Source of the DNA: Acetobacterium woodii DSM 1030
Lineage (GTDB): Bacteria; Bacillota; Clostridia; Eubacteriales; Eubacteriaceae
Direction: 5' to 3'
DNA: 64,000 bases
Assembly (NCBI RefSeq): GCF_000247605.1
Contig: NC_016894.1
Span: 992,001-1,056,000, forward strand
A model generated the notes under the pieces. It was not told where the DNA came from. It did no database searches and worked only from the letters and a program-made list of their open reading frames with translations. This document shows, piece by piece, positions 1,437-60,441 of the stretch (position 1 is its first letter; each line of letters begins with the position of its first letter). The translations under genes and the position numbers were made by a program.

Positions 1437-2420
1437 ATGGATTTGAAGGGACGTCATTTATTGACATTAAAGGATTTTACAGCGGAAGAAATACAATATC
1501 TTATCGATTATGCAGCAGAATTAAAAGCCAAAAAAAGCTCAGGTGAAGTAGGGACTCTTTTAAAAGGGCAGAATATTGTGCTGATTTTTGAAAAAACATC
1601 AACGAGAACCCGATGTGCCTTTGAAGTGGCCGCTTTTGATGAAGGCGCAAACGTAACCTTTTTAACAAATAGCCAAATGGGAAAAAAAGAATCCATTGAA
1701 GATACCGCAAAGGTATTAGGACGATTTTATAATGGCATTGAATTTCGTGGATTTAAACAGGAAACTGTTCAGCTTCTGGCCGAGCATTCCGGCGTTCCGG
1801 TGTGGAATGGTTTAACCGATCAATATCATCCCACTCAGGTATTGGCTGACATGCTGACGATCCAGGAAAATTTCGGAAGCTTAAAAGGGCGTCGCTTGGC
1901 TTATGTTGGGGATGCCAGAAATAATATGGGAAATTCGTTGATGATTGGTTGTGCCAAACTGGGAATGCATTTTGTTGCCGTTGCTCCAGAATCGCTTTTT
2001 CCCGAAGCTGATCTGGTGGCCGAAATGAGAGCGTTATGTGAAACAAGTGGCGGTTCGATTACCCTGAGTGCCGATATTCAAACAGCGGTAAAAGGAGCGG
2101 ACGTTATTTATACCGATGTCTGGGTTTCAATGGGCGAAGAAGATCAAATGGCTGATCGGATTAAGTTGTTATCGCCATATCAGGTCAATATGGAGATGAT
2201 TAAAGCTACTGATAACGATGACGTGATTTTTTTGCATTGTTTACCCGCTTTCCACGATTTGGAAACATCGGTGGCGCAGGATGTTAAAGAAAAATTCGGA
2301 TTGGATGAAATGGAAGTCAGCGATGAAGTTTTCAGAAGTAACCATTCCAAAGTATTTGATGAAGCCGAGAACCGAATGCATACGATCAAAGCGGTGATGT
2401 GTGCGTCTCTGGTTGGTTGA
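1437..2420 (+). CDS. argF: Ornithine carbamoyltransferase (probably catabolic)
   Basis: Interconverts citrulline plus phosphate with ornithine plus carbamoyl phosphate. The 327-residue protein has the carbamoyl-phosphate loop STRTR near residue 55, the HPTQ motif near 130, and the ornithine-side HCLP near 264. An upstream GGAGG supports the ATG at 1437. Its position directly after arginine deiminase argues for the catabolic (arcB) role, although sequence alone does not separate catabolic from anabolic enzymes. It ends 90 bp before a phosphohexomutase gene on the same strand with no clear terminator between them. Confidence 0.93.
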   Translation: MDLKGRHLLTLKDFTAEEIQYLIDYAAELKAKKSSGEVGTLLKGQNIVLIFEKTSTRTRCAFEVAAFDEGANVTFLTNSQMGKKESIEDTAKVLGRFYNGIEFRGFKQETVQLLAEHSGVPVWNGLTDQYHPTQVLADMLTIQENFGSLKGRRLAYVGDARNNMGNSLMIGCAKLGMHFVAVAPESLFPEADLVAEMRALCETSGGSITLSADIQTAVKGADVIYTDVWVSMGEEDQMADRIKLLSPYQVNMEMIKATDNDDVIFLHCLPAFHDLETSVAQDVKEKFGLDEMEVSDEVFRSNHSKVFDEAENRMHTIKAVMCASLVG

Positions 2421-2509
2421 TCCGCGAAAAGATCAGTTAAACTAAAAGTGGCAACTGGCGAAAAACGGTACTTAGCTTTGTGTGATTTACAACTGGGAGA
2501 TTAAGAAAA

Positions 2510-3994
2510 GTGGAAATTAAAAACATTAAAAAATTACAAAATGGCTCAGATGTCCGGGGCATCGCGCAGGAAGGAATTGCCGGCGAAACGGTCAATTTCA
2601 CTCAGGATATGGCGATGAAAATAGCTTTCTCATTTGCTACATGGCTGGAAAAAAAGTCGGGGAAAACCGCGTTAACTTTTGCGATTGGCAGAGATAGCCG
2701 GCTTTCTGGGGAAAACCTTGCTCAGGCGGTAGCGCTGGGTCTGGTAAGTAAGGGAAATAAGGTTTATCAATGTGGAATCGCTACGACCCCGGCGATGTTT
2801 ATGACGACATTAGATCCTGTTATCCAGGCTGATGGGGCAGTAATGGTAACGGCTAGTCATCTGCCTTTTAACCGAAATGGGCTTAAATTTTTCACCCGTG
2901 ACGGAGGCTTAGATAAAGCGGATATCACTGAAATTTTGGCATTGGCCGAAACCATCGAAACAGACTTTACACCGGGCGGAAAAACGTTGACGTATGATTT
3001 TCTGCCATCTTATGCTAACCATATTGTTAATATCATCCGTGAGAAAACCGGAAAAAATCAACCGTTAGCCGGAGCCGCGATTGTTGTTGATGCCGGTAAT
3101 GGCGCGGGGGGATTTTTTGTTGAACAGGTTTTAGTTCCGCTAGGGGCGAACACCAAAGGCAGTCTTTATTTAGATCCAGACGGAAGTTTTCCCAATCACG
3201 TGCCTAATCCCGAAGATGCCACAGCCATCGATCATATCAGCAGAGCGGTACTGAATCACCACGCTGATCTGGGGATCATTTTTGATACGGACGTTGACCG
3301 GGCCGCAATCATTGATGAAAAAGGGAATGCCATTAATCGGAATGGATTTATCGCTTTTATTGCCAGCATGGTATTATCGGACTATCCGGGTTCAACCATT
3401 GTGACCGATTCGATCACATCGACCGGGTTAACCGAGTATATTGAAAGTTTAGGTGGGAAACATCATCGTTTTAAACGTGGTTATAAAAATGTCATTAACG
3501 AGGCGATCCAATTAAACAGCCAAGGCATTGAAACCCATCTGGCGATGGAAACCAGCGGACATGGGGCGATCAAAGAAAACTATTTTCTTGATGATGGCGC
3601 TTATTTAGTCACCATGGCATTGATTAAATTTGCCGAACTTCATCAGGTCGGTAAACCCATCAGTTCCTTTTTAAAAGGCCTGAAAGAACCGGCTGAGGCT
3701 AAAGAAATACGCTTTAAAATAGCGGCTGACGATTTTAAGGCCTATGGTGAAAGGGTTTTGGCGGAGTTTAAAACCTTTGCCGCCAATCAACCAGGATGGA
3801 CAATTGTTAATCCCAATTATGAAGGGGTACGGATCAGTTGTGATACGAGCGCCGGAAATGGCTGGTGTTTGTTGCGAATGTCTCTTCACGATCCCATTAT
3901 GCCCTTGAATATCGAATCTGATAGTGTTGGTGGTTGTGAAATCATAGAGACCGTGCTAAAGCAGTTTTTGGCTCAATATCAGGCGTTGGGTTAA
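2510..3994 (+). CDS. Phosphomannomutase/phosphoglucomutase family protein
   Basis: Alpha-D-phosphohexomutase family enzyme that moves phosphate between C1 and C6 of hexose phosphates. It has the phosphoserine loop TASHLPFNRNG near residue 115, the metal-binding DTDVDR near 261, and a C-terminal domain whose phosphate loop is plausibly SDSVGG. The 494-residue length is typical. The start is GTG at 2510, preceded by GGGAG. Which hexose it prefers (mannose, glucose or glucosamine phosphate) cannot be decided from the sequence. The gene ends at a strong terminator. Confidence 0.85.
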   Translation: MEIKNIKKLQNGSDVRGIAQEGIAGETVNFTQDMAMKIAFSFATWLEKKSGKTALTFAIGRDSRLSGENLAQAVALGLVSKGNKVYQCGIATTPAMFMTTLDPVIQADGAVMVTASHLPFNRNGLKFFTRDGGLDKADITEILALAETIETDFTPGGKTLTYDFLPSYANHIVNIIREKTGKNQPLAGAAIVVDAGNGAGGFFVEQVLVPLGANTKGSLYLDPDGSFPNHVPNPEDATAIDHISRAVLNHHADLGIIFDTDVDRAAIIDEKGNAINRNGFIAFIASMVLSDYPGSTIVTDSITSTGLTEYIESLGGKHHRFKRGYKNVINEAIQLNSQGIETHLAMETSGHGAIKENYFLDDGAYLVTMALIKFAELHQVGKPISSFLKGLKEPAEAKEIRFKIAADDFKAYGERVLAEFKTFAANQPGWTIVNPNYEGVRISCDTSAGNGWCLLRMSLHDPIMPLNIESDSVGGCEIIETVLKQFLAQYQALG

Positions 3995-4031
3995 ATGATT
4001 CTGATTCTTAAAAAATTAGTCGACTAAATTA

Positions 4032-4080
4032 AATAAAAGCCAGACGGTTGTGAACTGAACACATCGTCTGGCTTTTATTA
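4032..4080 (+). terminator. Intrinsic terminator after the phosphohexomutase gene
   Basis: Perfect 15-bp arms at 4032-4046 and 4065-4079 with an 18-nt loop. The arms begin and end in A/T runs, so the hairpin could act in both directions. The convergent ECF operon ends at 4192. Confidence 0.8.
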
Positions 4081-4191
4081 TTTAGATAAATGTTTAAGTT
4101 TTAGCGGTTGTAGTTAGCAACAAATAATTTGCCTGGTTTTAGGTTTTGAAAAAAGATATATAGAAAGCGGCGGATTTATTAATAAATACCT

Positions 4192-5697
4192 TTAGACAGC
4201 CTTTTTTTCATGCCCGGAAAAACCATGATCAGGAATAAAAAAGGTTAACATCTGAAGAATTCCGTCATCGTCTAAAGGATAAATTTTTCTGATCGTGCCA
4301 TTATCAAGATGGAGGACATGGGTACAGGCCGCCAAAATCAGTTCCGGGTCATGAGTAATGATAAATTGGGTTTTCCCCAGCTCTGAAAGCTGTTGGATAT
4401 TAGTTGCAACTTGATACATATGGTTTAAGTCCAAACCACTTGTTGGTTCATCAAAAAGAATAAAGGGGCGAAGAGAAGCGATCGCGCAGGCGATAGCCAC
4501 TCGTTGTTTTTGGCCGCCGGAAAGAGCCATCGGGTGTTGGTCTTTTAGCGATGACAGGTCAAGGCTTGCTAAGATCTTTAAAGCGTCAGTTTCATTTTCT
4601 TCGTTCATCGAAAGCAGCAGTTCATCAAGAACACTTTCGGAAAAAAGTTGATGATTGACATCCTGCATGACCATAAAGCAGTTTTTTAGACGATCCCGGG
4701 CATTTAGATTACAGCCGTTAATATTAAGAAGGCCAGCGCATTTTTTTTCGAGACCGCATAAGCACCGGGCGAAGGTCGTTTTGCCGGCGCCATTCTCACC
4801 AATGATGGCGATAACAGCTTTTTTCGGCAGCCGAGCGTGCTCAATTTTCAGGCATGATTGGCAACGGCGATAGGCATAATTAAAATTGTGAATCGTAAAG
4901 GTATCCGTGTCAGCCGGATCAATAGCCTTGGGCAGGGGTGTAGTCGACAATGATTCCAGCTTCAAAAGGCGTAAACCCATTCGTTTCAGTTCGGGTTTAG
5001 ACAAATGTGAAAAGGCAGCACCGGAATAAGTTTTGACAATTCGGCCATTATTCATAAAGAAAACTCGATCGGCTAGTTTATGTAAATAGTGGAGCCGGTG
5101 TTCGGCAATAACGATGGTTTTACCTTGAGATTTCCATAGTGCAATTAGCGACTGGAGTTCACGGGTGGCTTTAGCGTCGAGGTTGGAAGAGGGTTCGTCT
5201 AAAACGATTATTTTAGGCTCTAGCGCAGCGACAGAGCCACAAGCGATTTTTTGTTTTTCACCACCGGACAAAGCAAAAATACTTCGTTCCAATAACGTCT
5301 CAAGACATAAATCATGGGTGATACGGCGGATGCGATGGTTAATATTTTCGGCGGGTAAACCCATATTTTCGCAGCCAAAAGCCAATTCACTCGTGGTATC
5401 GACATTAAAAAACTGACTGCGGGGATTTTGAAAAACAGAGCCAATTAATTCAGCAGTTTCATGGAGCGGGATTTTTGAAATATCCTTTCCGTCCACTAAG
5501 ATTTCGCCCGAAAGGGTGCCATTGTAAAAATGAGGAATGAGGCCGTTAATTAAGCGAATCACGGTTGTTTTGCCGCAGCCGGACTCTCCGCACAGTAAAA
5601 TGACTTCGCCCCGGTTGATGGTCAGGTTAAGATCATGCAGACAACTGACACCGTCATTGTTGTCGTAAGTAAAATTGAGATGGTTTAATTGGATCAT
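4192..5697 (-). CDS. ECF transporter ATPase with two nucleotide-binding domains
   Basis: Energises an energy-coupling-factor importer. Two complete ABC ATPase domains are fused in 501 residues. The first has Walker A GESGCGKTT, signature LSGGEKQK and Walker B VLDEPSSNLD; the second has GENGAGKTT, LSGGQKQR and LFDEPTSGLD. It therefore replaces separate EcfA1 and EcfA2 subunits. The ATG at 5697 is chosen because AAGGAG lies about 7 bp upstream; an in-frame ATG at 5715 overlaps that site. The gene starts 14 bp after the T-component stop codon. The substrate depends on the S component upstream. Confidence 0.88.
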   Translation of the reverse strand: MIQLNHLNFTYDNNDGVSCLHDLNLTINRGEVILLCGESGCGKTTVIRLINGLIPHFYNGTLSGEILVDGKDISKIPLHETAELIGSVFQNPRSQFFNVDTTSELAFGCENMGLPAENINHRIRRITHDLCLETLLERSIFALSGGEKQKIACGSVAALEPKIIVLDEPSSNLDAKATRELQSLIALWKSQGKTIVIAEHRLHYLHKLADRVFFMNNGRIVKTYSGAAFSHLSKPELKRMGLRLLKLESLSTTPLPKAIDPADTDTFTIHNFNYAYRRCQSCLKIEHARLPKKAVIAIIGENGAGKTTFARCLCGLEKKCAGLLNINGCNLNARDRLKNCFMVMQDVNHQLFSESVLDELLLSMNEENETDALKILASLDLSSLKDQHPMALSGGQKQRVAIACAIASLRPFILFDEPTSGLDLNHMYQVATNIQQLSELGKTQFIITHDPELILAACTHVLHLDNGTIRKIYPLDDDGILQMLTFFIPDHGFSGHEKKAV

Positions 5698-5711
5698 AAG
5701 AAGCTCCTTTA

Positions 5712-6431
5712 TCATAAAAAAATCCAGGCCAAAAATAAACTTAGTGTTAAAGCAATCAAAAACCAGTCGATTACGCCTAATCCAACCCGACAAATACTGG
5801 TTCGTTTAACTGGTTTTCCCAGTCCTCGGGTCAAGGCGGCGGCAGACAGTTCTTCGCCAATTTTTATGGTACATATGAGGACTGGAACAATCCGATACTC
5901 TAGCATGGCACCAATATTTTTGCCGTCAAAATGGATGCCTCGTATTCGCATGGCATCAGAAATGGCGGCATTTTCTTCGGCTACGGTAGGAAAAAAACGA
6001 AGCATCACCGAAAAAGGAATAATGATTTGAGGTGGCAGATGCATGCGTTCCATGGCCGCCACGAATTCACTGATCTTAGTGGTGGTGACCACATAATAGC
6101 CCATTACTACGGGCGGAATAAATCGTGATAGCAAACCGGCACCAATGACTAAAACGAGATTTAATAGCCCCTGGGTTTGGTTGACCAGTAAAATTTCAGC
6201 ACCCATGGCCAGAGTAACAAAAATACAATAGAAAATAGCTGGCCGATACAGGTGCTCAGCGATTAGTAGAAACAGTGGCAATAATGCCAAAAGTGGTCGG
6301 ATGACAGCAGCTAAACTGCTGTAACCACCACCAATGAGGACAATATTGATGATCAGAAGCATAAGTATTTTAGTTCGAGGGTCCAGCCAGAAATGACTGC
6401 ACTGCTCATTGGCAAAGGTTGATCGGTCCAT
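5712..6431 (-). CDS. ECF transporter transmembrane (T) component, CbiQ/EcfT family
   Basis: Membrane scaffold that couples the ATPase to the substrate-binding S component. The 239-residue protein is strongly hydrophobic with several predicted helices in the first 110 residues. It carries T-component coupling-helix features such as AMERMHLPPQ and the later AALTRGLG (A-R-G pattern). The ATG at 6431 shares a base with the TGA stop of the S gene (TGATG), so translation is probably coupled; a TTG three bases upstream is the alternative start. Confidence 0.85.
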   Translation of the reverse strand: MDRSTFANEQCSHFWLDPRTKILMLLIINIVLIGGGYSSLAAVIRPLLALLPLFLLIAEHLYRPAIFYCIFVTLAMGAEILLVNQTQGLLNLVLVIGAGLLSRFIPPVVMGYYVVTTTKISEFVAAMERMHLPPQIIIPFSVMLRFFPTVAEENAAISDAMRIRGIHFDGKNIGAMLEYRIVPVLICTIKIGEELSAAALTRGLGKPVKRTSICRVGLGVIDWFLIALTLSLFLAWIFL

Positions 6432-7012
6432 CAAGCAATGCCAGCCCGTTTAAAATGCTTTTTCAGCATCGCTTTGCCCAGATAGGATCCGGCGACAGCT
6501 CCAAGCGCAATAGCGGCAATCATGACAAAGAAAACCCAGGTTGGGGTGATAGCCATCAGCGTGTCGGTGTAGTAATCTCCATAACCGTCACGCATAGTTG
6601 CAAAATAACTGTCCCGCATGAAAAATATCGGAATGAATAGAGCAATTAACCATTCACTAAAAACGACGTAACCGATGCGGATTTTACCCCAATTGGTAAA
6701 ATGACCGGATTTGAGGATCATATCGGCGATTAGGGAGAAAACCACGCCAAAGGGAACACCAATCCAGGGATGGCCGGTGAGCATCATCAACAGACTTAAG
6801 ACCGTGCCCATAATGGTTACCATCCCGAATTTATTGACCTTGGTCAGAAAAAGCATAAAGGGGATCCCGGCAACCATCGGGCAAAGAAAGGGGATCGCCA
6901 ACATTAAAACGGGAATATACCCGACCATACCGGTAGTAAAGAAAACGACAAAATAAATTGCTGTAAAAATACCGACATTGATTAAATCTTTGGCTTGCAG
7001 TTTGTTATTCAT
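6431..7012 (-). CDS. ECF transporter S component, Trep_Strep-like membrane protein
   Basis: Small membrane protein of 193 residues with about five to six hydrophobic segments. It starts as MNNKLQAKDLINVGIFTAIY, typical of S components of the Trep_Strep type, whose ligand is not established. It is the first gene of a three-gene importer operon (S, T, double ATPase). The ATG at 7012 follows a good AGGAGG. It is transcribed away from an AraC-family regulator, and the gene set with two exporter-fold ABC proteins suggests handling of a metallophore or similar small molecule. That role is inference. Confidence 0.8.
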   Translation of the reverse strand: MNNKLQAKDLINVGIFTAIYFVVFFTTGMVGYIPVLMLAIPFLCPMVAGIPFMLFLTKVNKFGMVTIMGTVLSLLMMLTGHPWIGVPFGVVFSLIADMILKSGHFTNWGKIRIGYVVFSEWLIALFIPIFFMRDSYFATMRDGYGDYYTDTLMAITPTWVFFVMIAAIALGAVAGSYLGKAMLKKHFKRAGIA

Positions 7013-7036
7013 AAAAACCTCCTAAACGAATAAATG

Positions 7037-7092
7037 CTTAAGTTAGATTAAACTAACTTAAGTGATCAAATAAACCGCCTACAGGCGGTTTA
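7037..7092 (-). promoter_or_regulatory. Two palindromes in the leader of the ECF operon
   Basis: Inverted repeat 1 has 10-bp arms at 7037-7046 and 7053-7062. Inverted repeat 2 is a near-continuous palindrome at 7071-7092 with GC-rich arms (ACCGCC/GGCGGT). Both lie between the S-component start and the AraC gene. They could be operators or an attenuating leader hairpin; neither carries a convincing U-run. Confidence 0.45.
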
Positions 7093-7230
7093 GCTAAATG
7101 ATTAATTGAGATTTTAGCAATTTCTTTTGATTATTTCAACTCTGTTTTGCTAAAAGGGCTCCAAAAAGACATGAAGATTTTGATTAACATCAATTATTTA
7201 GATCAAAAGCTTGAAATTATAGCGGCTAGA

Positions 7231-7272
7231 AGTTATACTTGTATAACAAAAAGTTATAGTCATATAACAAAA
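7231..7272. promoter_or_regulatory. Two tandem 21-bp dyads upstream of the AraC-family gene
   Basis: Positions 7231-7251 and 7252-7272 are direct repeats with 17 of 21 bases identical. Each contains the inverted repeat GTTATA-N4-TATAAC. The 21-bp period equals two helical turns, as expected for two regulator dimers side by side on one DNA face. The site ends about 22 bp before the AraC-family start codon, so it could control that gene, the divergent ECF operon, or both. Confidence 0.6.
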
Positions 7273-7294
7273 TACGACAAAGCGGAGGGATAAA

Positions 7295-8281
7295 ATGGGT
7301 TTCTTAGCTGAAAACTTAAAACAATGTTGTACGAACATAAAAATTACAAAAATAGATGATTATTGCACCGCTTTTGAGTTTATCGGGGAAAATGGCAGGG
7401 GAACGATGACCAGTTATGAAATTTTTCCTGGTATTGAACTGATCTATAATGATTTTAATATGGGTGACTGTTTTAATAATCGCTATCCTCAAAACCAAAT
7501 TATGGAAATTAATCATTGTAGTCAGGGGCGTTTTGAAACAGAATTCCAGGACGGTTCTTTTGTCTATTTGAAAGAAGGGGATTTTTCAGTTAATATGTTG
7601 GGAAGATCGACCAAAAATTCCTGCTTTCCGCTCGAACGTTATCACGGGATTTCGGTGCTAGTTGATTTGGAAGTAGCAAAAACATTTTCAAATTATCTGA
7701 TCGAGGATATCGCGATCGATCTTTATAAAATACGGGATAGGCTTTGTTATCGGGGTCAATGCTTTATCATGCGGACTACGGCAGCGATTAACCATATTTT
7801 TTCTGAACTTTACACGGTTCCGGAAGAGATTAAACAGAGTTATTTTAAATTAAAAATATTGGAGTTGTTTTTGTTCTTAACCACGGTTGACGTTAGTCAG
7901 AACTATCAGGAACCTCAATATTTCAATCGCGCTCAGGTAGAGTGTGTTAAACAGATTAAACGTTATTTGATTTGTCATCTGGATCAGCAATTTACCTTAA
8001 ATGAGCTTTCACAAAAATTTGATATTTCATTAACAGCCATGAAAACCTGTTTTAAAGGTGTTTATGGGACGACTATTTTTTCTTTTGTTAGGAGCTATCG
8101 TATGCAGATTGCGGCGGAGATGCTGTTAAAAGGAAAAGAAAACATTACAGAAATTGCCGGAAAAGTGGGCTACTGCAATGCTAGTAAATTTGCCGCGGCT
8201 TTTAAAAAGGAATTGACGGTGTCGCCGACTCAGTATAAAAAAAATTGTCTAATTGGAGCAGGAACGATTCGGTTGGAGTAG
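7295..8281 (+). CDS. AraC-family transcriptional regulator
   Basis: DNA-binding regulator of 328 residues. The last 100 residues hold the double helix-turn-helix: LNELSQKFDISLTAMKTCFK followed by ITEIAGKVGYCNASKFAAAF and the SPTQYKK signature. The N-terminal 200 residues are a presumed ligand-sensing domain of the kind found in siderophore-type regulators. The start follows GCGGAGGG. It lies divergently from the ECF importer and just ahead of two ABC exporter-fold genes, so it probably controls both. The ligand is unknown. Confidence 0.88.
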   Translation: MGFLAENLKQCCTNIKITKIDDYCTAFEFIGENGRGTMTSYEIFPGIELIYNDFNMGDCFNNRYPQNQIMEINHCSQGRFETEFQDGSFVYLKEGDFSVNMLGRSTKNSCFPLERYHGISVLVDLEVAKTFSNYLIEDIAIDLYKIRDRLCYRGQCFIMRTTAAINHIFSELYTVPEEIKQSYFKLKILELFLFLTTVDVSQNYQEPQYFNRAQVECVKQIKRYLICHLDQQFTLNELSQKFDISLTAMKTCFKGVYGTTIFSFVRSYRMQIAAEMLLKGKENITEIAGKVGYCNASKFAAAFKKELTVSPTQYKKNCLIGAGTIRLE

Positions 8282-8304
8282 AGAAAGAAAGAGGAAATGC
8301 ATAT

Positions 8305-8343
8305 AATCAGTATTGTTAGTTTATTCTAACAATACTGATTTTT
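8305..8343 (+). terminator. Intrinsic terminator or attenuator after the AraC-family gene
   Basis: Perfect 15-bp arms at 8305-8319 and 8326-8340 with a 6-nt loop, followed by a short T run. It lies only 22 bp before the next gene, so it may set the ratio of regulator to ABC transporter transcripts. Confidence 0.7.
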
Positions 8344-8364
8344 GATTAAAGAAAGGACAAACGT

Positions 8365-10185
8365 ATGCACGTAGAAAAAAAGAAATTTATTTTAAAACGA
8401 TTTACACCGTATATGGGCAAAAAGAAAGTGCTGTTACCGGTATCATTGATCTTGTCAGGCTTATCAGCGGCACTTAATATTGTACCGTTTGTATTTGTCT
8501 GGTTCATTACCCGGGAGCTGTTGTCAAATCCGCGGATGACCCAGCTCAACAATATCGATTTTTATGCCTGGCTGGCATTGGGATGCGCCATATTGGGCGT
8601 GGTTATTTATTTTTTGTCGCTGCTAAGCTCTCATCTGGCGGCTTTTCATGTGGAAATTGGAATGCAAAAGCTGGGGATGGAAAGAATAATGGCCATGCCG
8701 CTGGGCTTTTTTGATCAGCATTCCAGTGGCAAAATCAGAAAAATTGTTAATGATGGTGCCGCCACAACGCATGGTTTTTTAGCTCATCAATTGCCGGACA
8801 TTGCCGGTAGTGTGGTTTCGCCCATTGTATTGATTGTACTGATTTTTACGGTCGACTGGCGGATGGGTCTGGCTTCGATGATGCCGATTGTAATTGGCTT
8901 TATTACCATGAGCTTCATGATGAACGAGAAGGGCAAGGAATTTCAGAAACGCTATTATGATGCGCTGGAAGAAATGAGCTCAGAGTCGGTGGAATATATC
9001 CGCGGCATTCCGGTGGTTAAAACCTTTGGTCAAAGTATTTTTTCGTTTAAGCGGTTTTATGACAGTATTATCAGGTACAAAGAGATGGTAGCGGCCTACA
9101 CTAAGCTTTGGCAAAAACCGATGTCATTTTATACGGTGGTGATGCAGTCGGCGGTCTTTTTCCTGATTCCCATGGCGATTTTGCTAATTGGCAGAGGGGA
9201 TAGCCTGTCGATGGTATTGGCCGATTTTATTTTTTATTTGTTAATCACGCCGATATTTTCGATGCTGTTAATGAAATCCATGCATTTTCAGCAAAATACT
9301 GTGATTGCTGAGCAAGCCATCGACCGGTTTGATCAGCTAATTCAATATCCGGCAATGGCGACAGCTAAAAAAGTGAGACCTATTGAAGAATACAGTCTGG
9401 AATTTAAAGACGTGGTGTTTTCTTATCAAGGGGCTGACAAAAAGGCTCTTAATAAGATAAGTTTTAAATTAAAGCCAGGAGAAACGATCGCTTTAGTTGG
9501 GCCTTCCGGTGGGGGAAAAACCACAATTGCCCGGCTGGCAGCCCGGTTCTGGGATGTGGATGCGGGGGAAGTGTTGATCGGTGGAATTAATGTCAAAGCG
9601 ATTCCCAAAAATGAACTGATGAATAAGATCGCTCTCGTTTTTCAGAATACACGGCTTTTTAAAACAACCTTAAGCGAAAATATTGTCTTTGGGAAAGAAG
9701 GTGTTGGTGCCGAAACAATTAACCGTGCCATCGATTTATCGCAGTCACGGGAAATTATTGATCATCTTCCCGGGGGGATTAATACTGTGATCGGCGCAAA
9801 AGGGACTTATCTTTCCGGCGGTGAGCAACAGCGGATTGCCATTGCCCGAGCCATGGTCAAGGATGCTCCGATTGTGCTGCTTGATGAAGCGACGGCCTTT
9901 GCCGATCCGGAAAATGAGCATTTAATCCAGAAAGCTCTTAAAGCCTTGAGTAAGGGAAAAACAACATTAATGATTGCTCATCGTTTGACCAGCGTTCAAA
10001 ATGTGGATCGGATTCTAGTGATTGACAACGGTATGATCGTCGAGCAGGGGAGTCATCAGAACTTGTTGGCGCAAGGTGGTTATTATCGAAAAATGTGGGA
10101 TGAATATCAACAAACTGTGGCGTGGAAAATTGATGCTCGCAGGACAACTAATGGAGGTCAAGATGATCAAATACTTTCAAAATAA
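8365..10185 (+). CDS. ABC transporter ATP-binding/permease half-transporter (YbtP/IrtA-like fold)
   Basis: Fused membrane and nucleotide-binding half-transporter of 606 residues. About six membrane segments lie in residues 20-310. The ATPase follows with Walker A GPSGGGKTT, signature LSGGEQQR and Walker B LLDEATAFAD. It overlaps the next, similar gene by 23 bp, so the two products almost certainly form a heterodimer. Pairs of this kind beside an AraC regulator resemble the siderophore systems YbtPQ and IrtAB, which have an exporter fold but import metal chelates. Drug or peptide export is the alternative. Confidence 0.87.
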   Translation: MHVEKKKFILKRFTPYMGKKKVLLPVSLILSGLSAALNIVPFVFVWFITRELLSNPRMTQLNNIDFYAWLALGCAILGVVIYFLSLLSSHLAAFHVEIGMQKLGMERIMAMPLGFFDQHSSGKIRKIVNDGAATTHGFLAHQLPDIAGSVVSPIVLIVLIFTVDWRMGLASMMPIVIGFITMSFMMNEKGKEFQKRYYDALEEMSSESVEYIRGIPVVKTFGQSIFSFKRFYDSIIRYKEMVAAYTKLWQKPMSFYTVVMQSAVFFLIPMAILLIGRGDSLSMVLADFIFYLLITPIFSMLLMKSMHFQQNTVIAEQAIDRFDQLIQYPAMATAKKVRPIEEYSLEFKDVVFSYQGADKKALNKISFKLKPGETIALVGPSGGGKTTIARLAARFWDVDAGEVLIGGINVKAIPKNELMNKIALVFQNTRLFKTTLSENIVFGKEGVGAETINRAIDLSQSREIIDHLPGGINTVIGAKGTYLSGGEQQRIAIARAMVKDAPIVLLDEATAFADPENEHLIQKALKALSKGKTTLMIAHRLTSVQNVDRILVIDNGMIVEQGSHQNLLAQGGYYRKMWDEYQQTVAWKIDARRTTNGGQDDQILSK

Positions 10186-57617: not shown

Positions 57618-57684
57618 AAGCTTGACAATTATCTATTAAAAGAATAAAATATAAAAAATCTCTTTGCACTGCGTTGATTACAGT

Positions 57685-57798
57685 ACAAACTGAACAGGCG
57701 ATGAACCATAAATGGTTCGTGGGGCCGGGCCACGATTGTGGCAGCAGATGAAGATAAACATCTGTGGGACAGTAATATGTTCCGCAGGTGTTTTTTTG
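57685..57798 (+). ncRNA. NiCo (czcD) riboswitch with terminator platform
   Basis: The aptamer (about 57685-57776) shows the conserved CAGGCGATGA, GCCGGGC, GCAGCAGATGA and TCTGTGGGACAG segments of the NiCo class. The 3' aptamer arm 57758-57771 can instead pair over 14 bp (with GU pairs) with 57778-57791, followed by seven U: an intrinsic terminator. Metal binding should hold the aptamer arm and prevent termination, turning on the P-type ATPase gene. Later work links this class to Fe(II) as well as Co(II)/Ni(II). Confidence 0.88.
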
Positions 57799-57897
57799 TT
57801 ATTAAAAAACACGCGGACATTGACTAAAATCACAGCAAATTTATTTGCTGAAAAAGTGAAATAGAGCCATGAAAAATAGAAAATGGAGGTACTTTTC

Positions 57898-60441
57898 ATG
57901 ACCACAAAAGAAACAATGGGCTTAACCACTGCGGAAGCCCGCAAGCGGCAGGAGCAATATGGAAAAAACGAATTGACGGCTGAGAAAAAAGAAAGCTTTT
58001 TTTTTAAGACCATCCATATTATTTGTGAGCCGATGTTTTTGTTGCTCATCGTGGCAGCCGTAATTTATTTTGTTTTAGGTGAACCCCGGGATGGGGCAGT
58101 GATGCTTATTTTTGTTATTGGGATCATCAGTATCGATGTGATTCAGGAATGGAAAACTGATCAGACGCTTAATGCCTTAAAGGAATTATCGGCGCCGCAT
58201 GTAACAGTCAGGCGGGATGGCAAAGAAATCACCATCGCCAGTGTTGATTTAGTCCCCGGGGATTTAATGCTCATTGCCGAAGGGGTTAAAATACCGGCGG
58301 ATGGGGAAGTTATTAAAGCCAATGATTTGTGTGTCGATGAGTCATCTCTAACCGGAGAAGCTGAAGGCGTCTGGAAAGTTACGGTTGAAAACGCCGAGGC
58401 CGCTTCAGATTATTGGCGTCGTGATTATTGTTATGCCGGTACGCTGGTAACACAAGGGAATGCCACCATCCTGGTTGAAAAAATTGGAGCCGCAACAGAA
58501 TACGGTAAAATCGGTGCTAATGTGGCAGCAGTGGTGGATTCACCAACACCTTTACAGAAACAGACAGATAGTCTGGTTAAGCTTTGCGCTGGCATCGCGG
58601 CGGTTCTTTTTTTATTGGTTAGCACCTTTACTTATTTTAATGTACTCAATCAGCCCTTTAACGATCGAATTATCGAAAGTATCTTATCGGGGATTACACT
58701 GGCAATGGCAATGATTCCAGAGGAATTTCCGGTCATTCTGATGGTATTTTTGTCGATGGGAGCCTGGCGGTTAGCCAAGAATAATTCATTAGTGCGAAAA
58801 CTACCTGCGGTTGAAACATTGGGAGCGGTTTCGGTGCTTTGTGTCGATAAAACGGGAACCATTACGATGAATCAAATGACCGTACAAGAGACCTGGGCCT
58901 GGCAAGGTGATGAAGAAAACCTATGTGAAATAATGGGACTGGGTTGTGAAACGGATGCTTATGATCCGATGGAAAAAGCGATGCTGCGCTATTGTGAAGA
59001 ACATGGGGTTAAAAAAACCCATCTTTTTGGGGGCGACTTAATTACCGAATATGCTTTTACTAATGAACTAAAAATGATGGGACATGTCTGGCATCATGAT
59101 GGCGAAATTATTGTTGCGGCCAAAGGTTCGCCAGAACGGTTGTTGACGATTTGTGATTTTGGAGAGAATGAAAGAGCGGCGATTGAAGCCAAAATCACCG
59201 AAATGTCAAAACAGGGATTACGCGTAATTGCTGTGGGAGAAATGCGACCCCAAACTGAAGCGGAAATACCAACAACGATTACCGAAGCTAAATTAACATT
59301 TTTGGGATTGATTGGATTGGCCGATCCGCCGCGGGAATCGGTTAAAGATGATATCAAAAATTGTTTAAAAGCGGGCGTTCGGGTGGTGATGATTACTGGT
59401 GACAACGGCATTACGGCCAGCAGTATCGCTAAACAAATTGGGATGCCCAATAGTGACCACATTATTACCGGCGATGAGTTAAGTAATATGTCCGATGAAG
59501 TGTTGCGCGAAAAGGTCAAAGATGTAAGCATTTTCTCCAGAGTGATACCGGAACACAAAATGCGAATTGTTAAAGCATTTAAAGACAATGGCGAGGTTGT
59601 TGCCATGACTGGCGATGGGGTTAATGATGCACCAGCCTTAAAGTCGGCCGATATTGGAATTGCCATGGGAAAACGGGGATCTGAGGTATCTCGCGAAGCG
59701 GCTGATCTGATCTTAATGGATGATAATTTTTCAACGATTATTGATACAATCAAGGACGGCCGCCGAATCTATGATAATATCCGCAAAGCAGTTGGTTATG
59801 TGTTTACCATTCACATCCCGATCGCGTTTTCGTCCCTTTTGGCTCCGCTATTGGGGATTGCCCCGGCGAGTCTTTTTCTACTGCCATTACATGTCGTGCT
59901 GTTAGAGCTGATTATTGATCCGACCTGTTCAATTGTGTTGGAACGACAGCCTGCTGAACATGATATTATGGAGCGAAAACCACGAGACACCCAGGAAAGT
60001 ATTCTCACGGCAACCACGCTGGCTAAAAGTGTCATTCAGGGACTGGTTATCTTTGCCTCATCTTTTGGACTTTATTATGTATTTTTGAGACAGGGGAACC
60101 CCGCTCTGGCCCGCACCATGGGCCTGGTCGTGATCATGCTGGCCAATTTAGTATTGGTGCAGGTTAATAGTTCAAATACTGATTTTGCTTTTCAATCCTT
60201 TAAACGACTGATTAAAGATAAGGTGATGTGGTTCATTAATATTGGCACAATTGTTGGTATAATAGTGATTTTATATACGCCGATCAACGGCTTTCTAAAG
60301 CTTTATCCATTAACCGTGGAACAATTGCTGCTGGCGATTGGAATTGCCATTTTATCGGTAATTTGGTATGAATTCGTGAAATTCATCAATTGGCAAAGAA
60401 ATAAAAGTCGACACGAAACAACGATTAAAAAGCCCGAGTGA
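57898..60441 (+). CDS. Cation-transporting P-type ATPase, probable Co/Ni/Fe exporter
   Basis: P-type ATPase of 847 residues. It has the N-terminal cation_ATPase_N domain, the TGEA actuator loop SSLTGEAEG, IPEEFPV in the fourth membrane helix, phosphorylation motif DKTGT, hinge TGDGVNDAPALKSAD and about ten membrane helices. PEEFP differs from the PEGLP of Ca pumps and the CPC of heavy-metal pumps. The riboswitch upstream implies export of divalent Co, Ni or Fe. The ATG at 57898 follows GGAGG; an ATG at 57883 overlaps that site. Confidence 0.87.
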   Translation: MTTKETMGLTTAEARKRQEQYGKNELTAEKKESFFFKTIHIICEPMFLLLIVAAVIYFVLGEPRDGAVMLIFVIGIISIDVIQEWKTDQTLNALKELSAPHVTVRRDGKEITIASVDLVPGDLMLIAEGVKIPADGEVIKANDLCVDESSLTGEAEGVWKVTVENAEAASDYWRRDYCYAGTLVTQGNATILVEKIGAATEYGKIGANVAAVVDSPTPLQKQTDSLVKLCAGIAAVLFLLVSTFTYFNVLNQPFNDRIIESILSGITLAMAMIPEEFPVILMVFLSMGAWRLAKNNSLVRKLPAVETLGAVSVLCVDKTGTITMNQMTVQETWAWQGDEENLCEIMGLGCETDAYDPMEKAMLRYCEEHGVKKTHLFGGDLITEYAFTNELKMMGHVWHHDGEIIVAAKGSPERLLTICDFGENERAAIEAKITEMSKQGLRVIAVGEMRPQTEAEIPTTITEAKLTFLGLIGLADPPRESVKDDIKNCLKAGVRVVMITGDNGITASSIAKQIGMPNSDHIITGDELSNMSDEVLREKVKDVSIFSRVIPEHKMRIVKAFKDNGEVVAMTGDGVNDAPALKSADIGIAMGKRGSEVSREAADLILMDDNFSTIIDTIKDGRRIYDNIRKAVGYVFTIHIPIAFSSLLAPLLGIAPASLFLLPLHVVLLELIIDPTCSIVLERQPAEHDIMERKPRDTQESILTATTLAKSVIQGLVIFASSFGLYYVFLRQGNPALARTMGLVVIMLANLVLVQVNSSNTDFAFQSFKRLIKDKVMWFINIGTIVGIIVILYTPINGFLKLYPLTVEQLLLAIGIAILSVIWYEFVKFINWQRNKSRHETTIKKPE

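Follow-up and report, generated by a model that had tools for sequence, protein, structure and literature searches.

The stretch of DNA analysed here, hereafter the window, comprises 64,000 nt of the Acetobacterium woodii DSM 1030 genome (contig NC_016894.1, positions 992,001 to 1,056,000; coordinates given below for its features are window positions on the forward strand). It holds a NiCo riboswitch followed by a gene for a P-type ATPase that carries the motif PEEFP in segment M4. Comparison of upstream sequences across genomes suggests that ATPases of this PEEFP lineage are a regular target of NiCo riboswitches, beside exporters of the CDF family, and the combination is repeated in many anaerobic bacteria.

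Scanning the whole window against Rfam with cmscan at gathering threshold returned a single match, to the NiCo model RF02683 at 57680–57774 on the plus strand (86.0 bits, E = 9.5e-19, where the gathering score is 37 bits). It covers the model end to end, positions 1–96 of 96, and is the only NiCo match across the 4.04 Mb genome. All 37 upper-case consensus positions of the model, junction nucleotides included, agree in the aptamer; the count refers to these positions as a whole, in which the metal-coordinating guanines were not mapped singly. In the NiCo class the metal is bound by guanines of the junction (PMC7689651). The closing helix P1 is formed by 57689–57692 and 57770–57773, and the last hairpin by 57744–57749 and 57760–57765. 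The window riboswitch is an ordinary member of the known NiCo family. An earlier interpretation made from the letters of the window (the sequence-only reading) had recognised a NiCo riboswitch with all conserved segments at this locus, and both score and consensus bear it out; its start at 57685 was 5 nt late, as the model begins at 57680.

The end of the aptamer overlaps an intrinsic terminator hairpin at 57756–57793, in which 57756–57771 pairs with 57778–57793 (16 pairs, 6-nt loop, −22.8 kcal/mol) and which leads into a run of seven U at 57791–57797. Its 5′ arm includes part of the 3′ strand of P1 (57768, 57770–57771) and the 3′ strand of the last hairpin (57760–57765). Because this arm re-uses the 3′ strands of the aptamer, the two structures are mutually exclusive. 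The alternative pairing proposed by the sequence-only reading (57758–57771 with 57778–57791, before a U run) is thus real and slightly longer than stated, and the on-switch architecture that it described is upheld by the same overlap and U run. In a fold model of the leader, the energy is −50.0 kcal/mol with the terminator and −32.6 kcal/mol when the 3′ arm of the terminator is blocked, a gap of about 17. The metal-free fold thereby favours the terminator, so that an OFF default is to be expected and bound metal would have to hold the aptamer during transcription. The leader also folds better than all of 200 shuffles (z = −5.8).

Terminator-like hairpins overlapping the end of the aptamer by 6 nt or more were found in at least 38 of 49 leaders of PEEFP ATPases and at least 21 of 37 leaders of CDF genes, compared with 14 of 980 and 10 of 740 shuffled sequences, respectively (20 mononucleotide shuffles per site, 75 nt downstream). 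These counts are lower bounds because the search pattern allowed no bulges; one leader scored as a miss forms a long stem at the equivalent place (L173; labels in G and L are our own, for genomes and loci). In the region of the window locus, terminator-like sites exceed chance (14 found, 3.3 expected), while promoter-like sites are near it (10 found, 7.1 expected). The sigma-70-like promoter TTGACA-17-TAAAAT at 57622–57650, some 30 nt before the aptamer, accordingly counts as a consensus match only, with 11 of 12 positions in agreement. Taken together, the leader looks like a metal-ON transcription switch of textbook design. Rising free Fe(II), Co(II) or Ni(II) in the cell would clamp the aptamer, and the clamped aptamer would block the terminator and let RNA polymerase read into the ATPase gene. 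The step of metal-dependent readthrough is inferred from the characterised NiCo class, for which it has been described (PMC7689651, PMC7917058).

The ATPase gene extends from 57898 to 60441 and encodes 847 aa from the ATG at 57898, or 852 aa from an ATG at 57883. The former is the likelier start because a Shine-Dalgarno-like GGAGG (57885–57889) lies 8 nt before it; residue numbers below follow the 852-aa form, and 5 is to be subtracted for the shorter one. Translation and alignment place PEEFP at residues 279–283 of M4 (58717–58731), confirming that the open reading frame 57883–60441 encodes the PEEFP-type ATPase expected downstream of the riboswitch. Pfam recognises the domains Cation_ATPase_N, E1-E2_ATPase, hydrolase and Cation_ATPase_C. 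In NCBIfam, only a generic P-type model scores above its cut-off; the best score, to the PMR1-type TIGR01522, is 514.5 bits (cut-off 798.3), while the SERCA-type TIGR01116 scores 411.1 (cut-off 703.4) and the heavy-metal model TIGR01525 245.3 (cut-off 346.25). The HMA domain is absent from the Pfam result, and M4 has PEEFP in place of a CPC or SPC motif. By these features and its TIGR01525 score, the protein does not fit the P1B class of heavy-metal ATPases. The nearest sequences of solved structure are the Listeria calcium pump LMCA1 and SPCA1, and the predicted structure aligns with SPCA1, SERCA, Na,K-ATPase and LMCA1 at Z-scores of 33–35 over about 800 residues. Used for the fold only and not for site geometry (predicted local distance difference test score 75, 17 near sequences), this model indicates that the window ATPase is P2-type, with a calcium-pump fold. 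Its best-matching named relative is from Acetobacterium paludosum (82% identity), and an annotated relative from Enterococcus gilvus (62% identity) is labelled ‘cation-translocating P-type ATPase’.

The ion site is rebuilt relative to that of pumps with PEGL in M4. The ten PEGL pumps compared by alignment all keep N644, E647, N675, T678 and D679, which we take to be the SERCA calcium ligands N768, E771, N796, T799 and D800. At these positions the window pump has H644, I647, E675, I678 and D679, so that four of the five calcium-site residues of M5 and M6 are replaced, and of the P2A pattern (Asn and Glu in M5; Asn, Thr and Asp in M6) only D679 is kept. H644 of M5 is encoded at 59812–59814. In M6, the stretch E675 to C682 (ELIIDPTC, 59905–59928) has E675, D679 and C682 where the PEGL pumps have Asn, Asp and Pro; C682 is one of two additional residues of the window pump, the other being E281 in M4. 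The neighbouring E280 aligns with E309 of SERCA. Seven residues, E280 and E281, H644 and P646, and E675, D679 and C682, make up a set typical of the PEEFP lineage, and all are present in the window protein. The set occurs in 86 of 101 PEEFP rows of the alignment, where incomplete rows count as misses and E281 was among the criteria by which rows were picked. It is found in every one of the 64 fully covered pumps preceded by a NiCo riboswitch; a further six such pumps are incomplete. Six pumps have PN for PE in M4, and all six, and no other row, have His at position 675 in M6; the tree requires two changes for each of these substitutions.

The link between this lineage and the riboswitch is seen in several genome samples. 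NiCo matches occur in 50 of the 391 genomes of the class-level sample, at 56 sites (four of them below the gathering score), and the 55 sites other than that of the window were retrieved and their first genes classified. Including the window, the first gene encodes a CDF exporter at 37 sites and a PEEFP ATPase at 17; the other two sites are one in G280, with no intact gene, and the second, sub-threshold site of G330. Pfam Cation_efflux was detected in 37 of 38 scanned non-ATPase first genes, and three CDF genes sit behind sub-threshold sites. A reverse search of the same 391 genomes with a profile of the 17 NiCo-preceded pumps (E ≤ 1e-180, the two best candidates per genome being scored) gave 98 matches, of which 21 were strong (820–1640 bits) and, after a gap down to 644 bits, 77 weaker. 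All 77 weaker matches have PEGL or PEAL in M4, and none is preceded by a NiCo riboswitch. Among the 21 strong matches, all PEEFP, 17 have the riboswitch upstream, one is cut off by its contig (G033) and three lack it (G093, G065 and G283). The riboswitch thus lies directly upstream of 17 of 20 testable PEEFP genes and 0 of 77 PEGL/PEAL genes (Fisher p = 3e-16, uncorrected for relatedness and obtained with a profile itself built from NiCo-preceded pumps).

A scan of species genomes yielded at least 80 PEEFP-like loci, divided into 40 nearer relatives (L129–L165, L171, L173 and L184) and 40 others. NiCo matches were found in 35 of the 40 nearer genomes, 34 of them above the cut-off. In 32 of the 40, the riboswitch lies directly before the matched ATPase, 45–260 nt from its matched start (among these L163, where the match falls just under the gathering score at 36.2 bits); two of the nearer loci are cut off (L156 and L158). 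In a Lentisphaeria metagenome-assembled genome (MAG; L165), a NiCo match at 3714–3805 (60.9 bits) is separated from the PEEFP gene by two genes of the same strand. From 3714 to 8484, that locus runs from the riboswitch through a B12-binding radical-SAM gene and a DUF2062 gene to the pump, an apparent operon. The phylum-level sample of 398 genomes gave NiCo matches in 99 genomes, at 111 sites, of which 60 were taken (the 66 best-scoring less six already seen or in the class). Their first genes comprise 40 CDF, 15 PEEFP and one truncated P-type ATPase (L318), and at four sites neither kind stands first (L306, L308 and L309, with L340 cut off). An additional check of aptamer letters used a pattern too strict for the 5′ part, which flagged 39 of 88 sites, and served only to show aptamer-like letters, with GGGAC close to their end, at the positions given.

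Other riboswitches were also considered. Rfam scans at the gathering threshold of 44 PEEFP loci, mostly from other phyla, revealed only tRNAs, an M-box element and the NiCo riboswitches of L173 and L164. In all, M-box (magnesium) elements lie near three PEEFP loci: in G093 and G065, whose pumps are identical, downstream of the PEEFP gene and ahead of another P-type-like open reading frame, and in L207 about 4 kb upstream of the PEEFP gene, with intervening reading frames on the other strand. By position, they look like leaders of other genes. Matches to the manganese riboswitch were found at 13 loci in 148 class genomes, every one below the Rfam gathering score; a P-type ATPase follows within the retrieved stretch at seven of these, and has PEGL or PEAL in all seven. 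As NiCo riboswitches go with PEEFP and the manganese matches with PEGL or PEAL, the riboswitch class sorts with the M4 type.

Some further NiCo loci have unusual contents. The third NiCo element of an Acetobacterium wieringae genome (L277, 5119–5215) precedes the gene for a 64-aa DUF6440 protein, a non-transporter. In Acetanaerobacterium elongatum (L282, 5457–5551) the element is followed by two genes of the ATC_hydrolase family and a flavodoxin-like gene, and in Clostridium tagluense (L279, 229–323) by a small reading frame that has no match in Pfam but looks membrane-like by eye, and by a gene for a NYN/LOTUS protein. Elements in G622 and G473 (L308, 182–277, and L309, 112–207) precede reading frames of no known family and a gene with a protein-kinase domain; one of the former encodes a His/Gly-rich protein of 72 aa. 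In L044, the NiCo-PEEFP pump is followed (2944–3303) by a similar His/Gly-rich beginning together with a double zinc ribbon. Lastly, G280, of the same genus as the window, has an intact aptamer (L281, 227–337) that is not immediately followed by any recognisable intact gene; two reading frames that by eye resemble an ArsR-type regulator and a heavy-metal pump begin about 2.7 kb further on.

The PEEFP tree, built with FastTree and weak at many inner branches, separates a mainly clostridial clade from a clade of many phyla. With extra sequences added, 65 of the 75 members of the first clade are NiCo-controlled (L165 counted among them), seven are not and three are untestable. In the second clade this holds for five of 46, namely L173, L346, L333, L337 and the truncated L318. 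The simplest reading is that PEEFP pumps recruited the NiCo riboswitch more than once. Members of the first clade from MAGs assigned to Actinomycetota, Chloroflexota and Synergistota may be transfers or binning errors.

We are confident, on the sequence evidence, that the window locus would act as a metal-induced efflux unit, in which the PEEFP pump expels the metal sensed by the NiCo riboswitch, spending ATP to do so. The lineage as a whole is best read as a subfamily of transition-metal exporters that share the calcium-pump fold and are induced by Fe(II), Co(II) or Ni(II). According to the sequence-only reading, the locus gives a metal role to a subgroup of ATPases that annotation usually treats as generic or as calcium pumps. 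The role gains support from the association with NiCo riboswitches (17 of 20 in the class, 32 of 40 nearer genomes, 15 of 60 phylum sites), and the remark on annotation fits a protein for which only the generic NCBIfam model passes and calcium-site residues are replaced. With moderate confidence we go further and propose that PEEFP ATPases form a widespread but so far unrecognised P-type subfamily of bacteria and archaea, whose members would export Fe(II), Co(II) or Ni(II) by way of a transition-metal site in a calcium-pump fold; the NiCo riboswitch, recruited more than once, would mark them in Clostridia and their neighbours, and it may be this lineage that supplies the missing nickel or iron exporter of acetogens.

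Several observations weigh against this interpretation. Nearer relatives without a NiCo riboswitch include the three class genomes named above as well as L150, L161, L162, L184 and L171, the plasmid-borne PEEFP pump of E. gilvus likewise lacks one, and a permissive search of seven NiCo-less PEEFP loci found none. PEEFP pumps of other phyla mostly lack the riboswitch as well, none of the 40 genomes of that group having a match. The seven-residue set is not tied to the riboswitch, since most NiCo-less pumps (35 of 47 fully covered) carry it too. The genes beside NiCo-less PEEFP pumps (134 genes, up to two per side, at 40 loci) show no recurrent metal partner among the 25 families listed of 285, each of which has at most four members (P-type ATPases four, CDF two). 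Furthermore, NiCo elements at times precede genes that do not encode transporters.

The aptamer by itself does not single out the metal carried by the pump, since published data on the ligand of the riboswitch conflict (PMC7689651). We tentatively favour iron(II), at a little short of even confidence, which would make the NiCo-PEEFP unit an anaerobic exporter of ferrous iron controlled by a riboswitch that senses iron. According to one review, Fe(II) and Mn(II) are the only metals expected to bind the NiCo class at their estimated availability in the cell, and a P1B ATPase under NiCo control in Listeria protects a Bacillus subtilis pfeT mutant against Fe(II), and somewhat against Mn and Zn, but not Co (PMC7689651). 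The class also appears as Fe(II)-responsive in two reviews (PMC11477304, PMC12593503), and the NiCo element of C. tagluense (L279) lies near convergent feoA and feoB genes (2100–4389, minus strand). On the other hand, the class has been described as Ni/Co-selective (PMC7689651, PMC7917058), the M6 cysteine and M5 histidine of the pump would suit Ni or Co as well, and the window locus has no iron gene as an immediate neighbour, but a glycerol kinase gene upstream and a gene for an amino-acid-type ABC binding protein downstream.

Nickel and/or cobalt is a possible but more doubtful choice, in which the unit would protect an acetogen that needs these metals for CO dehydrogenase/acetyl-CoA synthase and corrinoids. 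The first study of the class assigned Ni/Co as its ligand, although the cited Co and Ni affinities have been called too weak for a selective response in cells (both in PMC7689651). A study of A. wieringae ISORED-2 found no exporter specific for Ni, considered three P1B ATPases and described its nickel homeostasis systems as yet to be identified (PMC10134865); another A. wieringae genome, MAG CSMB_175, has two NiCo-PEEFP units (L160 and L276).

Export of manganese or zinc appears improbable. In the non-ATPase set of 38 first genes, 29 encode CDF proteins with HD/HD tetrads, and nine were not fully read, several with N. The HD/HD tetrad belongs mostly to Zn, Co and Cd types of CDF protein. The tetrads did not separate the metals among these 38 genes. 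Zn, and weakly Mn, also elicit a response of the Eba czcD riboswitch in vitro, and both activate it in Escherichia coli. Together with Fe(II), Mn(II) is considered capable of binding in cells, yet the affinity of the class for Mn is much weaker than for Ni, Co, Zn or Fe(II) (PMC7689651). A manganese pump is further weakened as a reading because the pumps behind manganese-riboswitch matches are PEGL or PEAL in 7/7 cases, albeit at matches all below gathering score. Finally, a PMR1- or SERCA-like calcium pump that merely happens to sit under a metal riboswitch, despite the P2 calcium-pump fold, the top score to TIGR01522 and the proximity to LMCA1 and SPCA1, is highly improbable and was rejected, as that score is far under its cut-off and the SERCA model also misses its own, the M5–M6 site residues N/E/N/T retained by all ten PEGL pumps of the class compared are H/I/E/I here, and, among these pumps, NiCo riboswitches go specifically with PEEFP.

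Transition-metal export by bacterial P-type ATPases is usually sought among P1B enzymes, and a search centred on these would miss a riboswitch-marked lineage with a calcium-pump fold. The nickel-export analysis of A. wieringae ISORED-2 considered only P1B pumps (PMC10134865). Linkage to the NiCo riboswitch offers a direct substrate test for a family labelled generic, and PEEFP pumps add another type of controlled gene through which the choice between iron and Ni/Co as the NiCo ligand can be decided. They also represent a natural experiment in which a single fold would have shifted its specificity from calcium to transition metals (N to H and N to E, with PE/E changing jointly to PN/H). Among the papers listed by the literature searches, several of which matched far more than they listed, we recognised none linking NiCo riboswitches to the PEEFP lineage, although the gene lists of the founding papers may already tabulate such pumps; ‘PEEFP’ as a term gave one match, which was irrelevant. 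As far as these searches reach, P2-fold PEEFP pumps with a rebuilt ion site are new as a regular NiCo target.

Compared with known systems, the NiCo (czcD) riboswitches of CDF exporters resemble that of the window in aptamer, upper-case consensus and the terminator-overlap ON design, but control a CDF protein where the window riboswitch controls a P-type ATPase. A Listeria plasmid likewise has a NiCo riboswitch before a P-type ATPase that is a supposed transition-metal exporter (PfeT/ZosA-like; PMC7689651, PMC6985202); that pump is described as a P1B enzyme of 627 aa, whereas the window pump has a P2 fold, about 850 aa and PEEFP in M4, with no CPC or SPC. The manganese riboswitch before Clostridioides difficile CD2503, an orthologue of Lactococcus YaoB (spelling as in PMC11477304), also places a metal riboswitch before a P-type pump. 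The manganese-riboswitch-linked pumps seen here, CD2503 not among them, have PEGL or PEAL in M4 (7/7) and not the PEEFP of the window pump. With the P2A calcium pumps LMCA1, SPCA1 and SERCA, the window pump shares its fold and domain order, but differs in that calcium-site residues across M4 to M6 are replaced and the NCBIfam calcium models remain below their cut-offs.

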